Shown: positions 119 through 22,039 of the stretch, in pieces
Layout: each line of letters starts with the position of its first letter
How positions within the stretch are numbered: position 1 is the first letter of the stretch
From: Spartinivicinus poritis
Lineage (GTDB): Bacteria; Pseudomonadota; Gammaproteobacteria; Pseudomonadales; Zooshikellaceae
Assembly: GCF_028858535.1 (NCBI RefSeq)
Contig: NZ_JAPMOU010000055.1
Span: forward strand, 1 to 32,024
DNA length: 32,024 nucleotides
Direction: 5' to 3'
Notes under the pieces: generated by a model
The model's database searches: none
What the model was told of the DNA's origin: nothing
The model's input: only the letters and a program-made list of their open reading frames with translations
Translations under genes and position numbers: made by a program

Positions 119-790
119 GTGGCAAAACCTAAAACACAAGATAAGATCATCAACACTAGCTTGGCTCTCTTTAACGAGCAAGGAGAGCGCAATGTGACAA
201 CAAATCACATTGCTTCTCACTTAGGTATCTCGCCAGGCAATTTGTACTATCACTTTAAAAATAAGCAGGAAATCATTTATCAGATATACCTTCAGTATGA
301 GAACGACCTACAAAACATCTTGGTACTGCCACAAGACCGCCCTATTACCCTTTCAGACAAGCAGCACTACCTAACAGAAGTTGTACAATGCATGTGGTGC
401 TATCGTTTTTTTCACCGAGACCTGGAACATCTATTATCTTCCGATCCGAAACTACATGGACGATATAAGCAATTTTCTCGGCTTTGCTTACAGTCCGCAG
501 AAGCTATTTATAATGCCCTACGTACAGAGGGCTATATTACAGCCAGTGATGCTCAATTAAAGGCGTTAAGCAATCACTGCTGGATTACAATGACTTCATG
601 GGTTAGCTTTTTACGAACCGCTGTTTTGTCAGACACAAATCGATTAACCAAGCAATGGATTCACGAAAGTATTTTTCAAATCATGGCTATTGAACTGGCT
701 TTTTTTACTGAAAAGGCTTTATATGAGCTAAAAACACTAACAGAGCTCACCTCCCCATCTTTATTATTTGAGGCAATAGATGCAGTATAA
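119..790 (+). CDS. TetR/AcrR family transcriptional regulator
   Basis: A 223-residue one-component repressor-type protein. Residues about 8-55 form the TetR helix-turn-helix: a helix with LALFNEQGERNVT, then IASHLGISPGNLYYHFKNK, the family's strongest signature. The rest is an all-helical ligand and dimer domain of normal length for the family; its ligand cannot be read from sequence. The start is GTG at 119; no in-frame ATG lies close enough to keep the first helix, and the Shine-Dalgarno is weak. The 3' end overlaps the next gene by 11 bases, so the two are probably one translationally coupled unit. The family assignment is firm; target and effector are unknown. Confidence 0.9.
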   Translation: MAKPKTQDKIINTSLALFNEQGERNVTTNHIASHLGISPGNLYYHFKNKQEIIYQIYLQYENDLQNILVLPQDRPITLSDKQHYLTEVVQCMWCYRFFHRDLEHLLSSDPKLHGRYKQFSRLCLQSAEAIYNALRTEGYITASDAQLKALSNHCWITMTSWVSFLRTAVLSDTNRLTKQWIHESIFQIMAIELAFFTEKALYELKTLTELTSPSLLFEAIDAV

Positions 791-1595
791 GTGGTTCATT
801 GACCTGGGCAGTCATTCAGCAAAGCTTTATCGTTTCGAATCTGGTGCGCTAGTCAAGTGCTGCTTAAGAAGCTGGCAATGGATAAAAAACAAATACGACA
901 GACACACAATATACACGCAGCTTAAAAACCTGTTAAACGAATTCTCAGTAAATGAACCAATTTTAGCGGTGGGTACTGCTGCACTCAGAAATAATAAAAT
1001 ATTAAAAAAACATGCCGAGCAGGCTTGCAGAACACTTTCAATACCACTGAAAGTGATATCCCAACAACAAGAAGCAGAGTTAATTCGCTTGGCTTGCCAA
1101 CACCATGATTATCCTAATGAGTATACGATAGTTGACGCTGGTGGAGGCAGTATTCAACTTATTCAACCTGACAAAGAAATACTGTTTTATCCTTATGGCT
1201 TAAACTATTTAACCCAACAATTTAATTTATCTAGTGAACCAGAAAATAGAAACCTCAAACAGTGTATCGAATGGCTAACCGCCCAGCTACCAAAATCAAT
1301 TAACTCCTTTATTTATACCGGCGGCGAAAAGCGTTATCTAGAGCATTTAGCTGTACCATTAACTAAAGATAAGTGCGCAAAAATAGATTTTATTAAGTTA
1401 GCAAGTCAACTAGCGCCAAAAACACAGGAAGAGCTTCGCTGCTTATCCCCCTTCGATCCTGAATGGATGGATGGTGCTATCGCTTCCAACTGCTTAATAG
1501 TTGCATTACTTAATAACTGTAGTGAAGATTTTTTAATGGTGAATAACTTAACGATTGTTGATGGGTTGCCGTTTGCTAGCAACAAACTCTGTTAG
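780..1595 (+). CDS. Short, divergent Ppx/GppA-family protein
   Basis: A 271-residue member of the ASKHA fold family of exopolyphosphatases and (p)ppGpp phosphohydrolases. Visible blocks are DLGSHSAKL (8-16), VGTAALRNN (64-72), the acidic QQQEAELI stretch (95-102) and VDAGGGSIQL (118-127), which correspond to the phosphate 1, connecting and phosphate 2 motifs. Two positions depart from the usual consensus: H12 where the family has Asn in GSNS, and Q126 where it has Glu in GGGSTEL. The protein has no C-terminal HD-type domain and is shorter than classical Ppx or GppA (about 300-510 residues). It starts inside the TetR gene, and its stop codon overlaps by three bases the stop of the opposite-strand NTPase-nuclease gene. 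Activity on polyphosphate or pppGpp is plausible but not assured. Confidence 0.8.
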   Translation: MQYKWFIDLGSHSAKLYRFESGALVKCCLRSWQWIKNKYDRHTIYTQLKNLLNEFSVNEPILAVGTAALRNNKILKKHAEQACRTLSIPLKVISQQQEAELIRLACQHHDYPNEYTIVDAGGGSIQLIQPDKEILFYPYGLNYLTQQFNLSSEPENRNLKQCIEWLTAQLPKSINSFIYTGGEKRYLEHLAVPLTKDKCAKIDFIKLASQLAPKTQEELRCLSPFDPEWMDGAIASNCLIVALLNNCSEDFLMVNNLTIVDGLPFASNKLC

Positions 1596-1780
1596 GGCTT
1601 GGACACATCAAGAACAAACACATCTATTAGCCCTATGAGTTCAGGCGGAAGTTTTGCTTCAATAGAGCTTTTTAGTTCCTTAGCACCTCTAATACCGTGT
1701 TTTATACGCCCTGCAACCTTTTCTTTAATACCAAACCAAATCACGAGAAAAACACCTTGTTGTTCTGCATCTGGATGAAT
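1092..1780. repeat. Long direct repeat, copy 1
   Basis: This segment covers the last 165 or so codons of the Ppx-like gene and the last 60 or so codons of the NTPase-nuclease gene. It recurs in direct orientation at 5918-6584. A hand count over about 470 aligned bases of the ppx part gives roughly 88% identity, with many third-position changes. Both convergent genes are intact in this copy. Confidence 0.9.
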
Positions 1781-4700
1781 GGAGTAACGTTCATGTAATT
1801 GAGTGGATGCTGCAGTATAAAGCTCTGGATGCCACTGCCCTTTGACTTCAGTTACCAATAAACATCTTCTGCCACTTATCATTTTGGTTACTGTGAAATC
1901 ACTCCGCTTTGCATCTTTTAATTGGTGCTCTGGGGTCACTGATATGCCTTGCGGTTCAAGCTTTAGATTGAGCCGCTCAGCAATAATCTCAGTAGACCGT
2001 ACCTCATCCAACCGTTTGTCTTTTTCATAAAATCGATCTGCAGAGTTATATTCACCGCCGTTAATTGCCCCCTGAAATTCTTGAAGCTCTTGGATCACCA
2101 GTTGGCGCAAACCCTCAACAGTAACTATCTCGTTGTGATCTAGTAAATCCACTATTTCCTGAGGTGTGGGTGGTTCGAAATTCATCAATACCTTCTTCCT
2201 GACTTGACCTGCGCGCATTGACTTTAAGGTATTATGAAGGTCTACAAAGCGCATATCGCTAAGAAGCCGATCAAGGACAGGTATAGCATCATCAGGGTCA
2301 TCTGAATCAATTAACCAGATCACATCTGTTAGGAAACGATATGCTTTCTCTTCCTTCGGGCTGTCTGTCCCCCAGGAATTAGGCAAATCAACCTTTGGCC
2401 ATTTATCAATAAAAGCATCTAGAATACCTTCAACTTTGTTCGATGTGAGTTTAGGCCAATATTTATTACCTCTATATGGCACTAAATCTAACTGCCCACG
2501 TAATACAAATACTGCATCTTTATCTGCTTTGAACCAGTCCCAACACTTTTTAGGTACATCCTTTAGAAAGCAAAATGCGCGCAAGTACCAAAATTTACGC
2601 ATTTGGTCGATGTCCTCACCAGCAGTTTGGTTCGGGCTATTGGATATAAACTCTGAACAACGCTCCACAATAATTTCATTCAAATCATCCCGGTTACCAT
2701 ACTGAGCAGCAATCTCAAAAAGCGTGTTTAATGGCTCGGAAGCCAACTCATGAAAACGGTTAAGCCATTCAATTGAGAGCGTTGCCCGCAAATGACTAAA
2801 GACGTCCTCGCGTAGTAAATCAACCTGAGGATAATTACATTTCAACTGTTCCAGTTGTGGCTCAACATACTGTCGGAGAAAACTCTCAGCATTTGTGATA
2901 CCAGAAAAGATTAGTCGGTCAATTTCATTTTTGAGTGCAATACGATCACCTTCTGTAACTGCTTTATAGTGTGTGTAAAAGTTAGTTCGCAGTGCTTTTA
3001 AGAGCCGAAGATCAACACTTTCTAGGTTACCTTTAACACGCATGATCTCTAAGCAAGCCGCATAAAGGATCACTTCAGCATGTAAAATCTTTGAAGTACA
3101 GTGAAGTTCAGCAAGCTTAAGTAAATCGGGAATTTTTGGAGCTAGGAAGTCGAGGCAATTTCTAAGTGCGCTCCGAACCAGCGTTTTGTCACCAAACTCC
3201 TGCTCAATTTTATCTGAGTCATTAAGCACCAGTCTTGCAAAGTGAACTAGGCAACTCCAATGGCACCCACTTTCGACAAGCTCCCGGTTGGCTTGGATAT
3301 ACTTAATATTTAGTCTGCGGATATCATCATTTTGCCTACGACGGCGTCTCATCCTTCGAGTATGCTTAAACCTCGCAACTTGATTTCTAAGCCTGAATTG
3401 TTCCTCAGCTCTGTTCGACTTGGCCCACTCTCGCATAAATGATGGTTTCTCTCTTGCCTGCTCCCGCATATGCCGTCGCAAACTATCAGGGCCACGTATT
3501 CCTTTATTTCGATAGTACTGATGACTAGATATAAAGCTTGCCCACAAATTTGGGTTGTCAGTCCTAAACGCCAAATCGACTAAGAACTTGTCGTCATCAG
3601 CTTGAAGATGAAGGCCCGAGTGGGAGTGTAAACCAAACATATGTAATTTGGCCTTGAAAATCTGGTCCCGGTCTTTCAACTTTTCAAACACATGAGCAAT
3701 AATGCCTTGACGCAGTTCATCGTCCTCTTGAAGTACTTTAACTGCCTTGCTTTGGTTTACAGTTTTACTCTCATGAAAGTTTAGGTTTTTGAGCCATTGC
3801 CAAATCCGTATTAGATTAAACGGAGGGTTAGCCAGATCGAAGTAATGATCCAGCATTGATCCGACGATCTTGCTTATACCGTTTCGGCAATCACACTCAT
3901 ATGACTCCTTCCCGCAAATACAGGCTAAGTCCTTAGTTAAAACATCCAAAAGCGATTCGACAGTTTCCAAAGTCAAACAGGCAATCAACTGTTTTATAGA
4001 GTAGCGGGCACCAACTGCCCCCCCCCCAAAAGTTTCATCATGTGAAGGATAGAGGCTTGTACAAGCCCGAAAAAAATCTTTGAGAAACGTATGTTCAAAT
4101 GATTCTGGGCCAAGCTTTTCGATGGCTTCAGCAACAATTATTAGAGAGGTATTACTGGCCTCAGAAACTAGAGCAGATAAGTCAGCATGATGATCATGCT
4201 CTGGTAATGACAATAAACATCTACTGGCTAATAAGCGAGTAGTTTCACTTTCTTTGGGTGCTAGAGTAAGTTGGCACAATTCAACCTTTAACTTTTCAGC
4301 TGCTGGTGAGCCTGATATAAGTTCAAGGGTTAGATGATGCAAGTGTCCATTACTATTTGATTTCAGAAGAGGCTTAATCTCTTCTACAACGTCTTGAGTG
4401 AAGAAGCCAGCCACACTAAACCTGCGCCAGGAGTCACCCCTTCGGAAGTAGGGATCTATATCTTCAATTTTTTTCAGCTGATTTATAAGTAAACACTTTG
4501 ACGACTTTTCAAGTTGAGATGGGTCACCATTTGCCAGCACAGCATAAGGGTCGAGCTCAATTGCAGCCTTTTCTATTGGCTTATTGCCTAATGCAGCCAT
4601 CCAACCTAACAACCCCCGAAGTTCATCTCGTACTGCTGAATTTGGGGCAATGATAGCGAGGCACTTAGGTAATGTCAGAGAATCTGCTGGGGCTGCTATC

Positions 4701-5614
4701 CGCTTAGTGAGATAATCTGCTGCACAATATTCAGCGACGATCTTATGGACTGGACGGTGCTGATCTGCATTATTTCCAGGCTTAAAAAGTCGGGTTGCTA
4801 GTATGCTATTAGTAACCGTGTTGATGTTTGCCAATGATGCTAATAAGGGATACAGCAGGTTTTCAGAGGCTTCGCTCGTGCTAATACCCTCAGCACCAGA
4901 TAATAAAAGCTTCGCGAAAACCTCTGACGACAGGTCAACTTTTTGAGTGGTTGAAAGTCCACATTTGGTTGTAGATACTTTGGTATTTGATTCTTTTGCT
5001 AAATGCTCGATTGCTTTTACAAAGATTGAATGTTTGCTGGTAAAACGTCTTTCGCTCTCAATATAAGCATCAGCAAATAATTTCAGGAACTGCGGGTTTG
5101 GAAGCAGTATTTCTAAATCAAATCGCGCAACTTCAGTACGGAAACCTTGGAAGTCTTCATTTTTTGCGTGATTCTCAAATATTTTTTGCTGCTCAGCTTC
5201 ATCAAACTCACATAGTTTGACCACTAGAGGTGAGCATCCAATAAACTCTTTAAACGCGCTTGTAGTAGAGCTATACCACTCACTTGATCGACTCGAAATA
5301 ATAACGTGCGTTGGGTTTGCCTTTCTAGCATTTGCGAAAAGTTTGTGTACTCCGGTTTGATCAACTTTGGCCAGTTCATCAAATGCATCAATCACTAGTG
5401 AGTAATTCTTCTCATCGCTTTCTATGTGCCTAAACAGATTTGCAGTCACCAGTGAGGACCCCAACTGTTTGGCAAGGCTTTTCATTAATTCTGTCTTACC
5501 ACCACCAGGTTCAGCCAAAACAATAATGTAATTCGAGGTTGCTAGCAGCTCTTTTTCAGAATATATTTTTTCATTACTTGATAGTCTGCGTGGAAGGTAG
5601 AAAGTTGAATTCAT
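1592..5614 (-). CDS. STAND/NACHT-like P-loop NTPase with C-terminal PD-(D/E)XK nuclease-like domain
   Basis: A 1340-residue protein. The N-terminal NTPase has a Walker A AEPGGGKT (34-41), a Walker B LVIDAFDE (73-80) and a sensor-like VIISSRSSEW (about 104-113), the layout of NACHT/STAND ATPases. Residues about 200-1200 are helical, repeat-like sequence with a cysteine-rich patch (CICGKESYECDC) and an arginine-rich stretch near 755 (RRMRRRRR). The C-terminus shows D1239, E1256-V-K1258 and Q1272, matching the D...ExK...Q pattern of PD-(D/E)XK nucleases. NTPase first and nuclease last is the reverse of typical Avs proteins, whose effector is N-terminal. I infer an anti-phage or anti-plasmid sensor-nuclease. 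A G10 tract at codons 530-533 and flanking direct repeats mark a variable locus. The start ATG at 5614 lacks an obvious Shine-Dalgarno; no upstream partner gene is visible. Confidence 0.75.
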   Translation of the reverse strand: MNSTFYLPRRLSSNEKIYSEKELLATSNYIIVLAEPGGGKTELMKSLAKQLGSSLVTANLFRHIESDEKNYSLVIDAFDELAKVDQTGVHKLFANARKANPTHVIISSRSSEWYSSTTSAFKEFIGCSPLVVKLCEFDEAEQQKIFENHAKNEDFQGFRTEVARFDLEILLPNPQFLKLFADAYIESERRFTSKHSIFVKAIEHLAKESNTKVSTTKCGLSTTQKVDLSSEVFAKLLLSGAEGISTSEASENLLYPLLASLANINTVTNSILATRLFKPGNNADQHRPVHKIVAEYCAADYLTKRIAAPADSLTLPKCLAIIAPNSAVRDELRGLLGWMAALGNKPIEKAAIELDPYAVLANGDPSQLEKSSKCLLINQLKKIEDIDPYFRRGDSWRRFSVAGFFTQDVVEEIKPLLKSNSNGHLHHLTLELISGSPAAEKLKVELCQLTLAPKESETTRLLASRCLLSLPEHDHHADLSALVSEASNTSLIIVAEAIEKLGPESFEHTFLKDFFRACTSLYPSHDETFGGGAVGARYSIKQLIACLTLETVESLLDVLTKDLACICGKESYECDCRNGISKIVGSMLDHYFDLANPPFNLIRIWQWLKNLNFHESKTVNQSKAVKVLQEDDELRQGIIAHVFEKLKDRDQIFKAKLHMFGLHSHSGLHLQADDDKFLVDLAFRTDNPNLWASFISSHQYYRNKGIRGPDSLRRHMREQAREKPSFMREWAKSNRAEEQFRLRNQVARFKHTRRMRRRRRQNDDIRRLNIKYIQANRELVESGCHWSCLVHFARLVLNDSDKIEQEFGDKTLVRSALRNCLDFLAPKIPDLLKLAELHCTSKILHAEVILYAACLEIMRVKGNLESVDLRLLKALRTNFYTHYKAVTEGDRIALKNEIDRLIFSGITNAESFLRQYVEPQLEQLKCNYPQVDLLREDVFSHLRATLSIEWLNRFHELASEPLNTLFEIAAQYGNRDDLNEIIVERCSEFISNSPNQTAGEDIDQMRKFWYLRAFCFLKDVPKKCWDWFKADKDAVFVLRGQLDLVPYRGNKYWPKLTSNKVEGILDAFIDKWPKVDLPNSWGTDSPKEEKAYRFLTDVIWLIDSDDPDDAIPVLDRLLSDMRFVDLHNTLKSMRAGQVRKKVLMNFEPPTPQEIVDLLDHNEIVTVEGLRQLVIQELQEFQGAINGGEYNSADRFYEKDKRLDEVRSTEIIAERLNLKLEPQGISVTPEHQLKDAKRSDFTVTKMISGRRCLLVTEVKGQWHPELYTAASTQLHERYSIHPDAEQQGVFLVIWFGIKEKVAGRIKHGIRGAKELKSSIEAKLPPELIGLIDVFVLDVSKP
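4018..4027 (-). other. Ten-base G tract in the NTPase-nuclease gene (candidate phase-variation tract)
   Basis: Ten consecutive C on the plus strand read as G10 in the coding strand, encoding G530-G532 plus the first base of the next codon. With G9 the frame meets TAA eight codons after the tract; with G11 it meets TAA roughly 28 codons after it. Either slip would give a protein with the NTPase but no nuclease. Confidence 0.7.
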
Positions 5615-5917
5615 AGATGCAAAACTTTAATGTGATACATGGGCTCAACTCAAGCCCTCTAAAGACTACTTGTTTAAACCAGGCAACTTCACCTGATGCT
5701 TCCTTTGCTACTAATCAAACAGCTAGGGGCACACATCAAATCAATTCCAGTGGGTCACTTTTTCTAAGAAAGTCCAGATCATATAACCAAGCTACCTATA
5801 AATAAAGCGTAATATAGACGACAAGAATAGGAATGGCAACATGACAACTAGCAGACTTTAGGGAAACAATTAATTTAGCTGGAGCTATTCAAGCACGCCC
5901 TCTATTTCAAGCTTCTA
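5615..5917. other. Region between the NTPase-nuclease gene and the second repeat copy
   Basis: This is the 5' flank of the minus-strand NTPase-nuclease gene and should carry its promoter, but I see no convincing -35/-10 pair. A 62-codon open frame at 5617-5805 on the plus strand has no ribosome binding site and no recognisable protein character. I see no RNA gene or transposase. Confidence 0.4.
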
Positions 5918-6405
5918 GCTTGCCAACACCATGGTTATCCTATGACACTGGTGGAGGCAGTATCCAACTTATTCAACCTGACAAAGAAATATTGTTTTAT
6001 TCTTATGGTTTAAACTATTTGACCCAACAATTTAATTTATCTAGCGAACCAGAAAATAGAAATATCACACCGTGTATAAACTGGCTAACCAGCCAGCTAC
6101 CCAAGACAATAAATTCCTTTATTTATACCGGTGGTGAAAAATATTATTTAGAACACTTAACTGTACCACTAACTAAAGATAAATGTACAAAAGCAGATTT
6201 TATTAAATTGGCAAATCAACTAAAACCAAAAACATTGGAGGAGCTTCGCAACTTATCCCCCTTCGATCCTAAATGGATGGATGGTGCTATCGCTTCCAAC
6301 TGCTTAATTCTTGCATTATTTAATAACTGTAGTGAAGATTTTTTTATGGTGAATAATCTAACTATTATTGATGGTTTGCCTTTTGCTAGTAACAAACTCT
6401 GTTAG
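5918..6405 (+). pseudogene. Ppx/GppA-like C-terminal fragment
   Basis: From TGGGSIQLIQPDKEIL to the final FASNKLC this is a diverged copy of the last 150 or so residues of the Ppx-like gene at 780-1595 (20 differences in about 152 residues by hand). The N-terminal half, including the first phosphate motif, is absent, and a 16-base deletion shifts the frame just before the glycine-rich motif. A TTG-started frame from 5920 exists, but no sensible start or ribosome binding site does. The frame has stayed open for 150 codons, so the loss is recent or the fragment came from a functional relative. Confidence 0.85.
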
Positions 6406-6584
6406 GGCTTGGATACATCCAGAGCAAACACATCAATTAAACCTGTTAGGTCTGCTGGTAGCTTCACTTCGATAGAGCTTTTTAGTTCCTTAGCACCTCC
6501 AATACCGTGTTTTATACGCCCTGCAACCTTTTCTTTAAATACCAAATCACGAGAAAAATACTTTGATGTTCTGCATCTGGTGAA
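6402..6584 (-). pseudogene. NTPase-nuclease C-terminal remnant
   Basis: The last 40 or so codons (KEKVAGRIKHGIGGAKELKSS to LDVSKP) match the C-terminus of the protein at 1592-5614 with a few substitutions. Upstream of that the match continues at base level for about 50 bases but with indels that break the frame. The D, E and K catalytic positions lie outside the remnant. A 77-codon frame running to 6635 is a chance extension, not a gene. Confidence 0.85.
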
Positions 6585-6757
6585 TACTATGAGCAAAAAT
6601 AATGCCTCTCTGATAAAATACTGACAAAAAGGCACTAGCTATCTTATGATATCAAATAGTATACCCATCATGAATAATTTTTAGGTTTGAAAATAAAGTG
6701 GTATATACTCACAGCATAGATTGAAATTTAACTAACTTTTCAATGGTATATCATTTT

Positions 6758-6786
6758 TTGATATGTTAATGCTCTCAAAGTAGTAA
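6758..6786 (+). promoter_or_regulatory. Possible sigma-70 promoter of the solute-binding protein gene
   Basis: TTGATA (6758-6763), a 17-base spacer and TAGTAA (6781-6786) lie in an AT-rich stretch about 55 bases before the likely ATG. The -10 is poor, so this is tentative. The rest of 6585-6842 has no gene. Confidence 0.3.
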
Positions 6787-6842
6787 AGATTGACTGCTTT
6801 AGGTCTATTCTATAACTAAAATCAAAGTTGTTATTTAGCTTT

Positions 6843-7607
6843 ATGTATATACATACATTGTTACTTTTGACTTTTTCATTGCTGGCAACACTGATATTTA
6901 GCTGCCCTTTGCAAAAAGTCAGATTTATTTCTGAGGACTTTCCACCTTATAACTATATTACTGCTGATGGTAAAGTGGAGGGAATTGCTGTTGACATATT
7001 AGTCGCTGCTTCGTCTCTTGTGAATTGCCATGTGCAAAGAAGTGATGTTGAAATATTGCCTTGGGCGAGAGGGTACAAGTATGCACTAACTGAATATAAT
7101 ACAGCCTTATTTAGCATGAGTTACAGTAAAGAGAGATCCAAGTTGTTTTTATGGGCAGGCCCTTTTGCCAAAACAAAAAACGCACTGATTAAAAAAAAGG
7201 TGAATAATATTATTATTAATCCAGATAGCCCAATACACACCTTTGTGATTGGAGCAATAAGGAATGATATTAGTCATCAATTGGCATTGGCAGCAGGAGC
7301 TAAAAATCATAATTTTCGATTTGCAAACCATCCTGACAACTTAGCCAGAATGCTGTTTAAAGATAGAATTGATATGTGGGCATACAATTACATCACGGCT
7401 AGATGGATCTTTCGAAAACTTAAATATACTGCTGATGAGTTTGAAATTGCTTATTTAATGAGTGAAAACGATAATTTTTTTGCTTTCAACAAAGACACAG
7501 ATCGTGAAGCAATACAGCTATTGCAACAAGGTATTGATCAATTAAAAACCATGCCAGGTAAATTTGGCGCATCGAAAATTGAAGAAATCATTCGAAACTA
7601 CCTATAA
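6843..7607 (+). CDS. Orphan family-3 extracellular solute-binding protein
   Basis: A periplasmic binding protein of the amino-acid type (SBP_bac_3), 254 residues from ATG 6843. A TTG five codons upstream is possible, but ATG fits a normal signal peptide. The N-terminus is a hydrophobic export signal ending in LIFSC; the Cys could be lipidated, though Phe at -2 is unusual for a lipobox. The mature part begins with VRFISEDFPPYNY and contains PWARGYKYAL and ERSKLFLWAGPF, blocks shared with the protein at 21296-22039. No ABC permease or ATPase gene is next to it, so it may serve a distant transporter or act in sensing. Downstream is a non-coding stretch of about 430 bases. Confidence 0.85.
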   Translation: MYIHTLLLLTFSLLATLIFSCPLQKVRFISEDFPPYNYITADGKVEGIAVDILVAASSLVNCHVQRSDVEILPWARGYKYALTEYNTALFSMSYSKERSKLFLWAGPFAKTKNALIKKKVNNIIINPDSPIHTFVIGAIRNDISHQLALAAGAKNHNFRFANHPDNLARMLFKDRIDMWAYNYITARWIFRKLKYTADEFEIAYLMSENDNFFAFNKDTDREAIQLLQQGIDQLKTMPGKFGASKIEEIIRNYL

Positions 7608-7661
7608 ACATTTACTCATCAAAACTCTCATGATAGTTATTGTGATGGTAATCAACATCAG

Positions 7662-7689
7662 CTGGGTTTCTTAACCAAGAAGCGCCCAG
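7662..7689. other. Hairpin after the solute-binding protein gene
   Basis: CTGGG-T-TTCTT-AACC-AAGAA-GCG-CCCAG folds as a 10-bp stem with a small internal loop and a 4-base loop. No T run follows, so it is not a standard intrinsic terminator. It lies 55 bases after the stop at 7607. Confidence 0.4.
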
Positions 7690-7904
7690 TTCTGTCGTAA
7701 TAGAAAATTCACAGACTCACATTGACAAAGACTCATCACGGTAAATTAGGTATAGTTCGTCGTTAAAAGAGCTAGCCACCCGTTAGAAACTTTTACTTAA
7801 TTATGACAAACAATCGATTATTAACTTATATAATGAATACTGTCATCTACTCCTATTGTTGTTTGTGGTTTAGGAAGTTGACTCTATCTCAAAAACAAAG
7901 TTTT

Positions 7905-7932
7905 AGCCCTTATTATCCTGAGGGCTTTTTTT
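7905..7932 (+). terminator. Intrinsic terminator-like hairpin in a gene-poor gap
   Basis: AGCCCT (7905-7910), a 10-base loop and AGGGCT (7921-7926) are followed by a T run reaching 7932. It sits about 300 bases after the nearest plus-strand gene. It may end a long 3' UTR or an unseen small RNA within 7690-7900. I see no tRNA or convincing ORF in 7608-8041. Confidence 0.5.
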
Positions 7933-8041
7933 CGTTATGTTTATTAATTCATTATATTGCTACCAGCTTAACTGGAATGGCTCGCAGAAATTACCGATAA
8001 AACAACAAACGACTCTAGCTGATGCTAATTATTTTCGATCG

Positions 8042-8398
8042 TTAAATTAAACCTTTTGTAAATCGAATTAAGAAGTTTCGATGAGTAATATTTAGTTTGA
8101 GAAATTCTATGCCAATGTAGCAATCCAAATCTTTAGTAGTTGCATGTCTTACTATCCCTTTTGCATATAAAGCGAAGTGGAAGTTCCTATAGTCCACAAC
8201 AATCATAAGAGGAGGCTTCTCTCCCACTTTTAGTAAGGATGGCGACTCGAGTAAAACTCCATAGCTTGATATATTCAACGTTACAGCAGGAGTAGATGTC
8301 TTGTCTTTTTTTCGTTTAATAGCGGCTTCCCACTTTACAGCTCTGCGTTTACCTACACGTTGTTCATTAAATGCATTGAGTAAGGTTCTATTTTTCAT
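8042..8398 (-). CDS. PilZ domain protein, probable c-di-GMP receptor
   Basis: A 118-residue single-domain protein. It shows both halves of the PilZ c-di-GMP signature: R14-V-G-K-R18 (RxxxR) and N42-I-S-S-Y-G47 (D/N-x-S-x-x-G), followed by beta strands. The motif is complete, so nucleotide binding is likely. It has no enzymatic or membrane domain and probably acts as an adaptor on a partner that is not encoded nearby. It is transcribed alone or with the small gene at 8476-8700, which lies upstream on the same strand 77 bases away. Confidence 0.85.
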   Translation of the reverse strand: MKNRTLLNAFNEQRVGKRRAVKWEAAIKRKKDKTSTPAVTLNISSYGVLLESPSLLKVGEKPPLMIVVDYRNFHFALYAKGIVRHATTKDLDCYIGIEFLKLNITHRNFLIRFTKGLI

Positions 8399-8475
8399 GA
8401 GTGGAGTACTGCTATAGCTTGGCTTATTCTATCAGTATAGAAAAATTTATTACAATTTGTTAAAAACTGGAGACT

Positions 8476-8700
8476 TTAATCTTCATATTCGAGGATATCA
8501 CCAAAATAAAATCCAAACATTCCTTTGTAAAACTTGATCTTCATTATCTTTGAATCAATACTGATGGCATTAACCATAAAAATTGCTTGGTCATTTGCCC
8601 GTATCGTCCAGTAATACTCTGCTCTACCACGAACATCTGTTCCTTGGGAAGCTGATATTACTGCGTAATCGCCTAAGAGCTGCTTAAGAACAAAATTCAT
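8476..8700 (-). CDS. Small hypothetical protein
   Basis: A 74-residue protein I do not recognise. It has no signal peptide or membrane segment; the pattern of alternating aromatic and charged residues (AEYYWTIRAND, KIKFYKGMFGFYFGD) suggests a small beta-rich fold. No good Shine-Dalgarno precedes the ATG at 8700. It is oriented with the PilZ gene downstream and may share its transcript. Confidence 0.4.
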   Translation of the reverse strand: MNFVLKQLLGDYAVISASQGTDVRGRAEYYWTIRANDQAIFMVNAISIDSKIMKIKFYKGMFGFYFGDILEYED

Positions 8701-8775
8701 TAAAAACGATAAGAAAGCCTAGTGGAGCGCCAGGCATATCACTGAACCAAAAGATACCATTTGTCATTCAATACC

Positions 8776-8946
8776 ATGTATCTGTCACTAAGAGTAAGGG
8801 CATCATCTGGTTCATTAAATACTGCAATTTGCTATAAGATTATTGATGCCGATGGTGAAATAGTATTAGAAACTTTATATGACCGTTTTAAACTAACATC
8901 TAAGAAAATACCCCTTTATTTCAGTGAAGATTTGAGTATACATTGA
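8776..8946 (+). CDS. Very small hypothetical ORF
   Basis: A 56-codon frame from ATG 8776 (a TTG at 8761 would add five codons). The middle (CYKIIDADGEIVLETLYDRFKL) has protein-like amphipathic composition, but there is no Shine-Dalgarno and no recognised family. It is divergent from the gene at 8476-8700. It may be spurious. Confidence 0.25.
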   Translation: MYLSLRVRASSGSLNTAICYKIIDADGEIVLETLYDRFKLTSKKIPLYFSEDLSIH

Positions 8947-9066
8947 TCAGTATCACCTATTCTTAAAAAGTGATACGCAAGAACCATCAATATCAAGCGT
9001 AATTCCTTTGAGCTTGTTGCAATCTATAAAATCTAAATAATTCGTGCTTGCCTACTTAATTTACAA

Positions 9067-9789
9067 TTAGATATTCATATAAAGAGACTGAGCAATAAGA
9101 TTAATGGCAACCAGTGTCAACACCCACTTAACTATAGAAGAAAAACTTTTATTACTCAGCTTATGACGTACTTTGGTGCCAATATATGAACCCATTATAC
9201 TAGCTACAGCAAGCGCTATGATAAGTGGCCAATAACTTAAAATAGAATATCCTAGCACACCATAAACAACCACTTTAAAAACATGACTAATTGCCATTAA
9301 CACAGCATTAGTTGCGACGATGCCATCTTTAGTCAGCCCTCTATCCGTCAACACGGCAGTCGCTAAAGGGCCTGTTGCCCCAACAATCACCCCTAACCCA
9401 GATTGCAAACAACCAATTAGCCACATGGAATAATTCGAACGATTAAGCCAATTGAATAACTGTGTCCAAGTACTTAGTAAAATGAAAAAGCCGATCAAAA
9501 GGGGAAAGTAGTCAAAGTTAAAATTCACTACAACCAAGCTAGCAATCAACACACCTACTACTGAACCACTTAGAAAAGCACCAACTACAGCCCAGTGAAC
9601 ACTTCTATAAGCAAATAAAAACCTAGAGCAGTTACTCACCAGCTGGTTTGCACCATACATAGGAATCACGACAGATCCTGGCAAGTAAATAGGCAGTATG
9701 CCTAAAAACAGTTGACCACCGGCAAAGCCTAACACGCCACTCACAGTGGATGTTACTAAAGCTGCTATGGTTAAAATGATCCAATCCAT
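9067..9789 (-). CDS. TSUP (TauE/SafE) family membrane permease
   Basis: A 240-residue integral inner-membrane protein with seven to eight hydrophobic helices. The N-terminal TSTVSGVLGFAGGQLFLG repeat half and the second glycine-rich half SGLGVIVGATGPLATAVL are the two internal repeats of the TauE/SafE family, linked to export or uptake of sulfur-containing anions or organic acids. Substrate cannot be predicted because no sulfur or taurine genes are adjacent. AAGG lies 6-7 bases before the ATG at 9789. The gene stands alone. Confidence 0.85.
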   Translation of the reverse strand: MDWIILTIAALVTSTVSGVLGFAGGQLFLGILPIYLPGSVVIPMYGANQLVSNCSRFLFAYRSVHWAVVGAFLSGSVVGVLIASLVVVNFNFDYFPLLIGFFILLSTWTQLFNWLNRSNYSMWLIGCLQSGLGVIVGATGPLATAVLTDRGLTKDGIVATNAVLMAISHVFKVVVYGVLGYSILSYWPLIIALAVASIMGSYIGTKVRHKLSNKSFSSIVKWVLTLVAINLIAQSLYMNI

Positions 9790-12155: not shown

Positions 12156-12232
12156 TGGTTGGCCGGGAAGGACTCAAACCTCCTCATACACTCTTCTCAG
12201 GAATACGCTCTGCCAGATTAAGCTACCGGCCA
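12156..12232 (-). tRNA. tRNA-like gene, anticodon GAG (Leu), no long variable arm, encoded CCA
   Basis: Read on the minus strand the cloverleaf is complete: acceptor TGGCCGG pairs perfectly with CCGGCCA, then U8-A9, a D arm GCTTAATCTGGCAGAGC with G18-G19, an anticodon stem with two G-U pairs, loop CTGAGAA (anticodon GAG), a 5-base variable loop, T stem GGAGG/CCTTC, loop TTTGAGT, A73 and an encoded CCA. GAG is a leucine anticodon, yet tRNA-Leu normally has a long variable arm. The T loop has T instead of the near-universal C56. It could be a specialised tRNA or a decaying pseudo-tRNA. It lies 36 bases downstream of the exporter gene on the same strand. Confidence 0.65.
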
Positions 12233-21295: not shown

Positions 21296-22039
21296 TCAAG
21301 GAGAAATATTATGCTTTTTTATAATTTTATTTTTAATATCATCATTATAAATTTCTTTAAATGCATTATTTAACTTATTATAGACCTCATTAGAGGTATT
21401 ATTACTAACAGCCATGTAGTAGTTATATTTAAAAGTCATTATTGCTGGATAGACGTCCTCAAATTTGAGGCCTAGCTTTTTCAGTCTAATGGGTAAAGTG
21501 ATGTTATTTCCAGAAATCAAGTCCACTTTAAATGCATATAGCTTCTTAATATTTTCTTCTTCTGAAACAGAAATACTCAGCGCTTTCTTTTCTTCAAATC
21601 CTACTGAACTTAAAAACTGATGACTAACATCGCCTCGCATAACCCCAACAATATATTCTTTTGCATCACTGACATTTGAAAGAGCAATGTCTCTCCGACT
21701 ACTTAGCTTATATAGGTAAAATTGCTTACCTGAAAATAGTGGTCCTATCCACTTAAATAGGGACTCTCTTTCTGGAGTACGTAAAATGGTATAAATGATT
21801 ACATTAGGTTTATATAGAGCAATTTGATATGATCGAGCCCAAGGATATAAGTGAATGCTATATTTATAGTTTGCCTTTGCTAATACTTTTTTAACTACTT
21901 CTGTTGAGGCCCCAACAACTTGGCCTTTTTCGCGATAATTATAGGGAGGCCAATTCTCTGTCACCACTAATAATTCATTAGCACTTAGCTGTAACATGCT
22001 AGCAATAACAATCATCAAGCTTAAGCTTTTTACTATCAT
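21296..22039 (-). CDS. Second orphan family-3 solute-binding protein
   Basis: A 247-residue exported protein. The signal peptide (about 1-20) ends LSANE. The mature start LLVVTENWPPYNYREKGQVVG is the typical family-3 opening, followed by YPWARSYQIALYKPN and TPERESLFKWIGPL, blocks shared with the protein at 6843-7607. VGVMRGDVSHQFL corresponds to the central ligand-binding strand. No transporter genes are adjacent. The two proteins are paralogues but clearly diverged. Ligand is unknown; polar amino acids are the usual class. Confidence 0.85.
   Translation of the reverse strand: MIVKSLSLMIVIASMLQLSANELLVVTENWPPYNYREKGQVVGASTEVVKKVLAKANYKYSIHLYPWARSYQIALYKPNVIIYTILRTPERESLFKWIGPLFSGKQFYLYKLSSRRDIALSNVSDAKEYIVGVMRGDVSHQFLSSVGFEEKKALSISVSEEENIKKLYAFKVDLISGNNITLPIRLKKLGLKFEDVYPAIMTFKYNYYMAVSNNTSNEVYNKLNNAFKEIYNDDIKNKIIKKHNISP

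Follow-up and report, generated by a model that had tools for sequence, protein, structure and literature searches.

A diverged, broken copy of a Ppx-like/EruA gene junction beside an EruA-family gene of Spartinivicinus poritis, a possible trace of module exchange within the genus

Introduction

Defence genes in bacteria turn over quickly. At the cDHS1 and cDHS2 loci of Pseudomonas aeruginosa, conserved flanks enclose defence genes that turn over with no fixed mobile element involved, and transduction together with homologous recombination is proposed as the route (PMC10250203). Such a route would leave no mobile-element scar. The locus described here lies in a 32,024-nucleotide (nt) stretch of Spartinivicinus poritis DNA (positions 1 to 32,024 of contig NZ_JAPMOU010000055.1, assembly GCF_028858535.1), referred to below as the window. 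It carries a gene for an EruA-family NTPase-nuclease joined tail to tail with a Ppx-like gene, and, unlike the cDHS loci, it has a scar inside the flanking gene, namely a stump that reads as a second allele of the same Ppx-like/EruA module. On balance, we favour the reading that two diverged alleles of one module were joined here by recombination within the genus, one of them being left behind as the stump. Exchange of defence loci through the homology of conserved flanks has already been proposed (PMC10250203), and the window adds a case whose scar is unusually informative. Defence-gene exchange by ordinary recombination can go unmarked; a stump that keeps part of a second allele, junction of the two genes included, makes such an event legible, and it points to a donor within the genus.

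Two further routes, homology-facilitated illegitimate recombination and the integration of circularised DNA by one crossover, have been described in Escherichia coli (PMC3240628). A homologous end combined with a non-homologous join would give an intact gene and a 5′-truncated partner, which is the arrangement seen in the window; these routes are applied here from the layout alone.

The EruA family is represented in NCBIfam by the model antiphage_EruA (NF058535), which stands for an anti-phage NACHT protein. A literature search for EruA or HyoA, judged by titles or abstract openings, returned no anti-phage description of EruA, and there is no "Eru" in the available passages of the main text of PMC13092281. 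The anti-phage name comes from NCBIfam alone.

Structure of the repeat

The two copies of the repeat lie in the same orientation on the plus strand. Copy 1 occupies 1092-1780 (689 nt) and copy 2 occupies 5918-6585 (668 nt), and blastn aligns them at 85.05% identity with 21 gap columns (E 0). Identity is 87.1% in the ungapped part (1133-1728 against 5943-6538) and 87.0% across 445 nt of the Ppx-like part. An earlier reading made from the sequence only had described diverged direct repeats of 0.67-0.69 kb around the EruA gene, about 88% identical in the ppx part and with the second copy broken in both genes, and the alignment bears out each of these points.

Each copy consists of the 3′ end of a Ppx-like gene joined tail to tail with the 3′ end of an EruA gene. 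Copy 1, which is intact, takes in 504 nt at the end of the Ppx-like gene and some 189 nt of the EruA tail; copy 2 has the same order and orientation and is disrupted in both genes. The Ppx-like part of this stump (5918-6405) is truncated at its 5′ end, beginning at codon 105, and carries a 16-nt deletion. Its EruA part (6402-6585, minus strand) retains about 61 of 1340 codons and has deletions of 4 nt and 1 nt, so that both parts are frameshifted. The Ppx-like frame of copy 2 stays open through 148 codons, with 21 residue differences from copy 1, in agreement with the roughly 150 codons and 20 differences first noted. Seven identical runs of 20-38 nt are common to the two copies in the ungapped part, and an identical 23-nt run at 1581-1603 spans the Ppx-like/EruA junction in both. 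Judged by eye, neither junction (5917/5918 or 6585/6586) has a long microhomology that would indicate a route.

An identity of 85% over 668 nt with an E value of 0, at two places in the genome, rules out a chance origin of the repeat. The repeat segment has two matches in the 6.83-Mb genome and no third one in a search at E 0.001, and a repeat search reported no further repeat of at least 60 nt in the window. A mis-join in the assembly is unlikely, given that the copies have diverged.

The Ppx-like and EruA proteins

The intact Ppx-like gene (780-1595, plus strand) is an open reading frame (ORF) for a protein of 271 residues, and its stop codon overlaps that of the EruA gene. The protein matches PF02541 at 52.3 bits. 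It had been named ppx, a name that does not hold: against the curated cut-offs for canonical exopolyphosphatase and GppA it scores 52 bits where TIGR03706 asks for 307, and 24.5 and 23.6 bits where two other models ask for 864 and 624. By its sequence, it is classed as a Ppx/GppA-family member and not as a canonical ppx product. A separate relative is encoded elsewhere in the genome, in a frame of 505 codons. Close relatives of the 271-residue protein (E 1e-20 or better) occur in three of the 293 genomes of the order, all three in this genus.

The EruA gene (1592-5614, minus strand) encodes 1340 residues. The sequence-only reading had called it an NTPase-nuclease defence gene, and the protein indeed matches NF058535 at 1424.7 bits over residues 13-1338, against a cut-off of 1000. 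Like other members of that family it matches the model over its full length and has a STAND-type NTPase and a putative nuclease-like domain at the C-terminus. The N-terminal NTPase scores 28.5 bits with nSTAND3 (cut-off 27.2), which places it among the STAND-type P-loop proteins, while the NACHT model gives 18.2 bits, under its cut-off of 26.7. At the C-terminal end, D1239, E1256-x-K1258 and Q1272 form a pattern in which the D, E-x-K and Q are invariant in 23 aligned sequences, and which we take to be the motif of a PD-(D/E)XK nuclease. A fold model of the last 200 residues has a pLDDT of 84.5. In a comparison of this model with the PDB, MspJI takes ranks 1-4 (best E 2.6e-3, TM 0.31). Since unrelated folds, such as Tdp2 and AvrA, follow directly at ranks 5-6 and no match is at or below E 1e-3, the motif carries the assignment of a putative nuclease more than the fold does. 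The window protein is about 59-70% identical to proteins in Marinobacter, Zobellella, Pseudomonas and others, and as a member of its family it is not distinctive. The region upstream of the gene (5615-5917) has no convincing similarity to the corresponding region of the EruA gene in genome G254.

The inserted block and the relatives

The close comparison set comprises two congeners (G001 and G002) and two genomes of the sister genus. EruA is absent from all four. Each congener has one close Ppx-like gene; G002 gives a further, weak match, to the 505-codon relative. The gene order is TetR, Ppx-like, HAD hydrolase and TauE in G001, and TetR, Ppx-like and TauE in G002, so that window, G001 and G002 (n=3) have the same flanks and differ in the content that separates the Ppx-like gene from TauE. 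For calling the site a hotspot, three genomes of the genus are too few. Had all relatives shared the two-copy arrangement, an old fixed duplication with no exchange would have been indicated; neither congener has a second close copy or an EruA gene. EruA is also rare more widely, being found in three of 293 genomes of the order at 1e-100 and in nine of 369 genomes of the class at 1e-50, three of these nine above the family cut-off.

In the window, about 83 nt of the HAD hydrolase gene survive beside TauE. This remnant (8984-9066, minus strand) amounts to about 27 codons, and the full gene, for 272 residues, stands at the same place in G001. Because of the remnant, the 7.4-kb block from about 1580 to 8983 is best read as an insertion that probably replaced most of the HAD gene, rather than as a loss in the relatives. 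The Ppx-like C-termini of G001 and G002 differ from the Ppx-like/EruA ending shared by both copies of the repeat. Since the copies have one common gene-gene junction and the congeners have other Ppx-like endings, the comparison indicates that both copies descend from a single Ppx-like/EruA module and that the insertion came before the copies split.

Divergence between the copies

In the Ppx-like tail, the copies differ by 0.083 non-synonymous substitutions per site (dN) and 0.437 synonymous substitutions per site (dS), giving a dN/dS of about 0.19. In the EruA tail (44 codons), dN is 0.063 and dS is 0.508 (dN/dS about 0.12), and 12 of the 18 differences are at third positions. Eleven window genes compared with G001 have dS values of 0.17-1.33 (a twelfth row, for half a gene, repeats the Ppx-like gene and is not counted), so the two alleles are about as far apart as congeneric species.

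When 58 random substitutions were simulated on copy 1, they produced 39.9 residue changes on average, and none of 5000 runs had as few as the 21 observed. Simple neutral decay of copy 2 from copy 1 is thereby excluded; for the most part, the two diverged under purifying selection. The open frame of copy 2, taken by itself, is weak evidence, being kept in 8% of simulations with 58 changes and in 48% with 16 changes. The earlier suggestion that copy 2 diverged as a working allele before it was broken therefore stands on the simulated residue changes, the dN/dS values and the third positions, and not on the open frame from which it had been drawn; it is also tempered by changes in copy 2 that look partly relaxed, as discussed below. 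Across the 445 nt, copy 2 has evolved no faster than copy 1, with 59 against 65 differences to G001 and 83 against 83 to G002.

With 38 of 44 residues identical, the EruA tail of each copy has that of the other as its closest match among 80 rows; 25 of these rows were listed, and the six differences between the copies bar any unlisted row from reaching 38. An origin of the copy 2 tail in a different EruA type is ruled out by this match.

Mosaic pattern along the repeat

Identity between the copies alternates along the repeat: 94.1% (1134-1234), 81.0% (1235-1450), 91.3% (1451-1577), 78.6% (1578-1661) and 98.5% (1662-1728). The differences are clustered (p 0.0014 in the Ppx-like part and 0.009 overall), while those of either copy from G001 are not (p 0.90 and 0.80). 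In the middle tract, copy 2 is 89.4% identical to G001 and 81.0% to copy 1, and it groups with G001 at a bootstrap of 89; in the end tracts the copies group together (bootstrap 86), and the approximately unbiased (AU) test rejects copy 2 with G001 (p 0.037). Informative sites switch allegiance along the repeat (permutation p 0.0074). A recent duplication in situ does not predict a middle tract of copy 2 that is nearer to G001. Taken as a whole, the mosaic is better accounted for by recombination of diverged alleles than by one recent duplication, which we regard as suggestive and not settled.

Origin of the two copies

The favoured reading, in which two alleles of one module were brought together by recombination within the genus, would involve the following steps. 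As the shared junction shows, an EruA-type gene inserted directly behind the Ppx-like gene in an ancestor within the genus. Versions of the resulting module then diverged, both under selection, as the dN/dS values show, and presumably in separate genomes. DNA with the other version may have entered the chromosome and recombined at the locus, leaving one intact module together with a stump, 668 nt of the other version. Most simply, a crossover in shared sequence, either the Ppx-like gene or its left flank, would have been paired with a non-homologous join at 5917/5918, through homology-facilitated illegitimate recombination or the entry of a circularised fragment at one crossover. A second deletion at 6585 would have taken away the remainder of the second EruA gene, and the alternating tracts of high and low identity would fit crossover or gene conversion between the versions. 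The donor of the second allele should be a congener, since the Ppx-like gene is restricted to this genus among the 293 genomes of the order. Either allele may have been the resident one, and the event may have been a replacement or a partial deletion: compared with the congeners, neither the TetR gene nor the Ppx-like gene has an identity step peculiar to copy 1, and no left border of foreign DNA is seen there. The module exchange proposed in the sequence-only reading holds in outline. The insertion, the shared junction, the constrained divergence and the intact copy next to a stump disrupted in both genes are observed; donor, order and mechanism are what we infer. Recombination across the 4.8-kb direct repeat is predicted to be a simple route to loss of EruA.

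Several observations weigh against this reading. It requires at least two break events. EruA-free sites with one Ppx-like gene were found in both congeners, but neither these two genomes nor 77 further EruA loci yielded the second allele or a lone Ppx-like/EruA module. Changes polarised to copy 2 look relaxed, with 10 non-synonymous and 6 synonymous against 8 and 11 for copy 1, although these are small numbers and such relaxation is expected if copy 2 lay broken in its last period; the copy 2 branch is also longer in the end tracts (0.052 against 0.028). In the middle tract, the AU test leaves the tree with the copies together unrejected (p 0.121). At 62 sites, copy 2 agrees with one of copy 1 and G001 and differs from the other; the maximum cusum on these gives p 0.079, and p 0.0005 comes only from a range statistic, a form that favours a middle tract; for the siding of G001 with copy 1 or copy 2, p is 0.26. 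The control pair G001-G002 is itself nearly clustered (p 0.055). The tract borders were picked after inspection of the data and several tests were run, but the permutation tests are independent of the borders. Finally, the phylogeny of the Ppx-like tails supports copy 2 with G001 in the middle tract, as given above, whereas the full 444 nt join the two copies as sisters with weak support (bootstrap 54-56).

This last result is also what would be expected if the whole Ppx-like/EruA module had been duplicated in tandem, in situ and long ago, both copies working for a long time and exchanging patches by gene conversion before the second decayed. Such an origin is possible, though we think it rather doubtful. 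It accounts for the tandem, direct arrangement with an identical junction, and patches of 94%, 91% and 98.5% identity are what conversion between neighbours leaves. It would require selection to maintain two redundant modules for about the time since the species split, and the similarity of the copy 2 middle tract to G001 would demand either a duplication before that split or input from outside; the two congeners hold no trace of a second close copy.

That the two-copy arrangement was built in another congener and delivered whole, together with the inserted block, is decidedly unlikely. The whole block of 1.6-9.0 kb is missing from both congeners and is a composite of EruA, the stump, a solute-binding-protein gene and a PilZ gene, as a ready-made arrival would have it, but the Ppx-like gene continues into the TetR flank without the left border that a delivered block should show.

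Very improbable is an integrative element that targets a gene tail, copy 1 having arrived with the element and copy 2 being the displaced native tail: such elements usually leave a 5′-truncated copy on the far side of the inserted gene, and enterobacterial EruA loci with a similar layout exist, one of them beside a tRNA gene, but here the displaced copy also bears an EruA tail, so the site would already have held EruA, the repeat is much longer than an attachment core, no integrase was recognised by eye among the window ORFs of at least 90 residues, and the locus has no tRNA gene, the only one in the window being at 12156-12232.

EruA loci in other genomes

The best 80 of 356 EruA matches were kept as a collection, which represents 77 distinct loci. 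No neighbour gene of the window was found at any of the 77 loci at E 1e-4. Flanking repeats, direct or inverted, occur at 11 of the 77, eight having been left out for want of a long ORF. A translated comparison of the flanks started from 79 rows (the 77 loci, L028 and the window), of which five were dropped for short flanks, leaving 74 rows and 73 distinct loci, since L028 and L146 appear to be one contig. Considering the best three matches per row, nine of the 74 rows have flanking repeats, all of them direct. Direct repeats within 1 kb on both sides are found in three, the window, L097 (Serratia) and L104 (Brenneria), and an EruA tail upstream of EruA is found in the window only. At none of the other loci of this collection was EruA seen in the setting that it has in the window, tail to tail with a genus-specific Ppx-like gene and accompanied by a second-allele stump.

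In L097 and L104, the repeat consists of diverged tails of a PemK/MazF-like gene, about 0.3-0.7 kb upstream and 0.2-0.6 kb downstream of EruA. As in the window, the gene that converges on the 3′ end of EruA has a diverged copy of its tail directly upstream. These enterobacterial loci differ from the window in the identity of the neighbour gene, in the upstream remnant, where no EruA tail was found, and in that L097 lies beside a tRNA-Asn gene. The two loci are related and may reflect one event. They parallel the window in layout, which is no proof of a common mechanism. Parts of their PemK-tail repeat are also present in L091, L094 and L117.

A more general scheme is unlikely in our estimation. 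EruA modules would move without a recombinase of their own and would carry the tail of the converging gene, which would serve as a homology handle for entry by a single crossover and later, as a direct repeat, for loss or swap. Stumps of neighbour tails upstream of EruA, Ppx-like here and PemK in Enterobacterales, would then be the signature of recurrent cassette exchange.

EruA relatives are present in seven plasmid records and one phage record, none with at least 60% identity, and at ten loci in viral contigs, the best at 61%. The EruA genes of Desulfoluna limicola (L111, 12442-13713) and Leptolyngbya PCC 7375 (L133, 13212-13349) appear to be interrupted by extra DNA, about 1.7 kb and 1.3 kb long, respectively.

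Other features of the locus

The flanks kept in both congeners are a TetR-family regulator gene on the left (119-790, plus strand; PF13972, 131 bits; synteny with G001 and G002) and a TauE/SafE-family gene on the right (9067-9789, minus strand; PF01925; synteny). About 73 nt past the end of copy 2 lies the left part of a dispersed repeat (6658-6716, plus strand), which has at least 25 matches in the genome including itself (40 of 86 candidates scored) and is present in G001, G002 and the sister genus. Four loci of this repeat had no match in Rfam, and many other copies extend into longer shared sequence.

A PilZ-domain protein gene (PF07238) is located at 8042-8398 on the minus strand. Between it and the HAD remnant, the segment 8399-9000 is low in G+C (34%) and contains small ORFs, including, by eye, one of about 74 residues on the reverse strand near 8480-8700. 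The solute-binding-protein gene (SBP_bac_3; 6828-7607, plus strand) has an 82% paralogue elsewhere in the same genome (contig C77, 426-1133) and a match of 70% in G001, which suggests that the inserted block gained it by copying. A further gene resembling a solute-binding protein gene, judged by eye, is located at 21296-22039.

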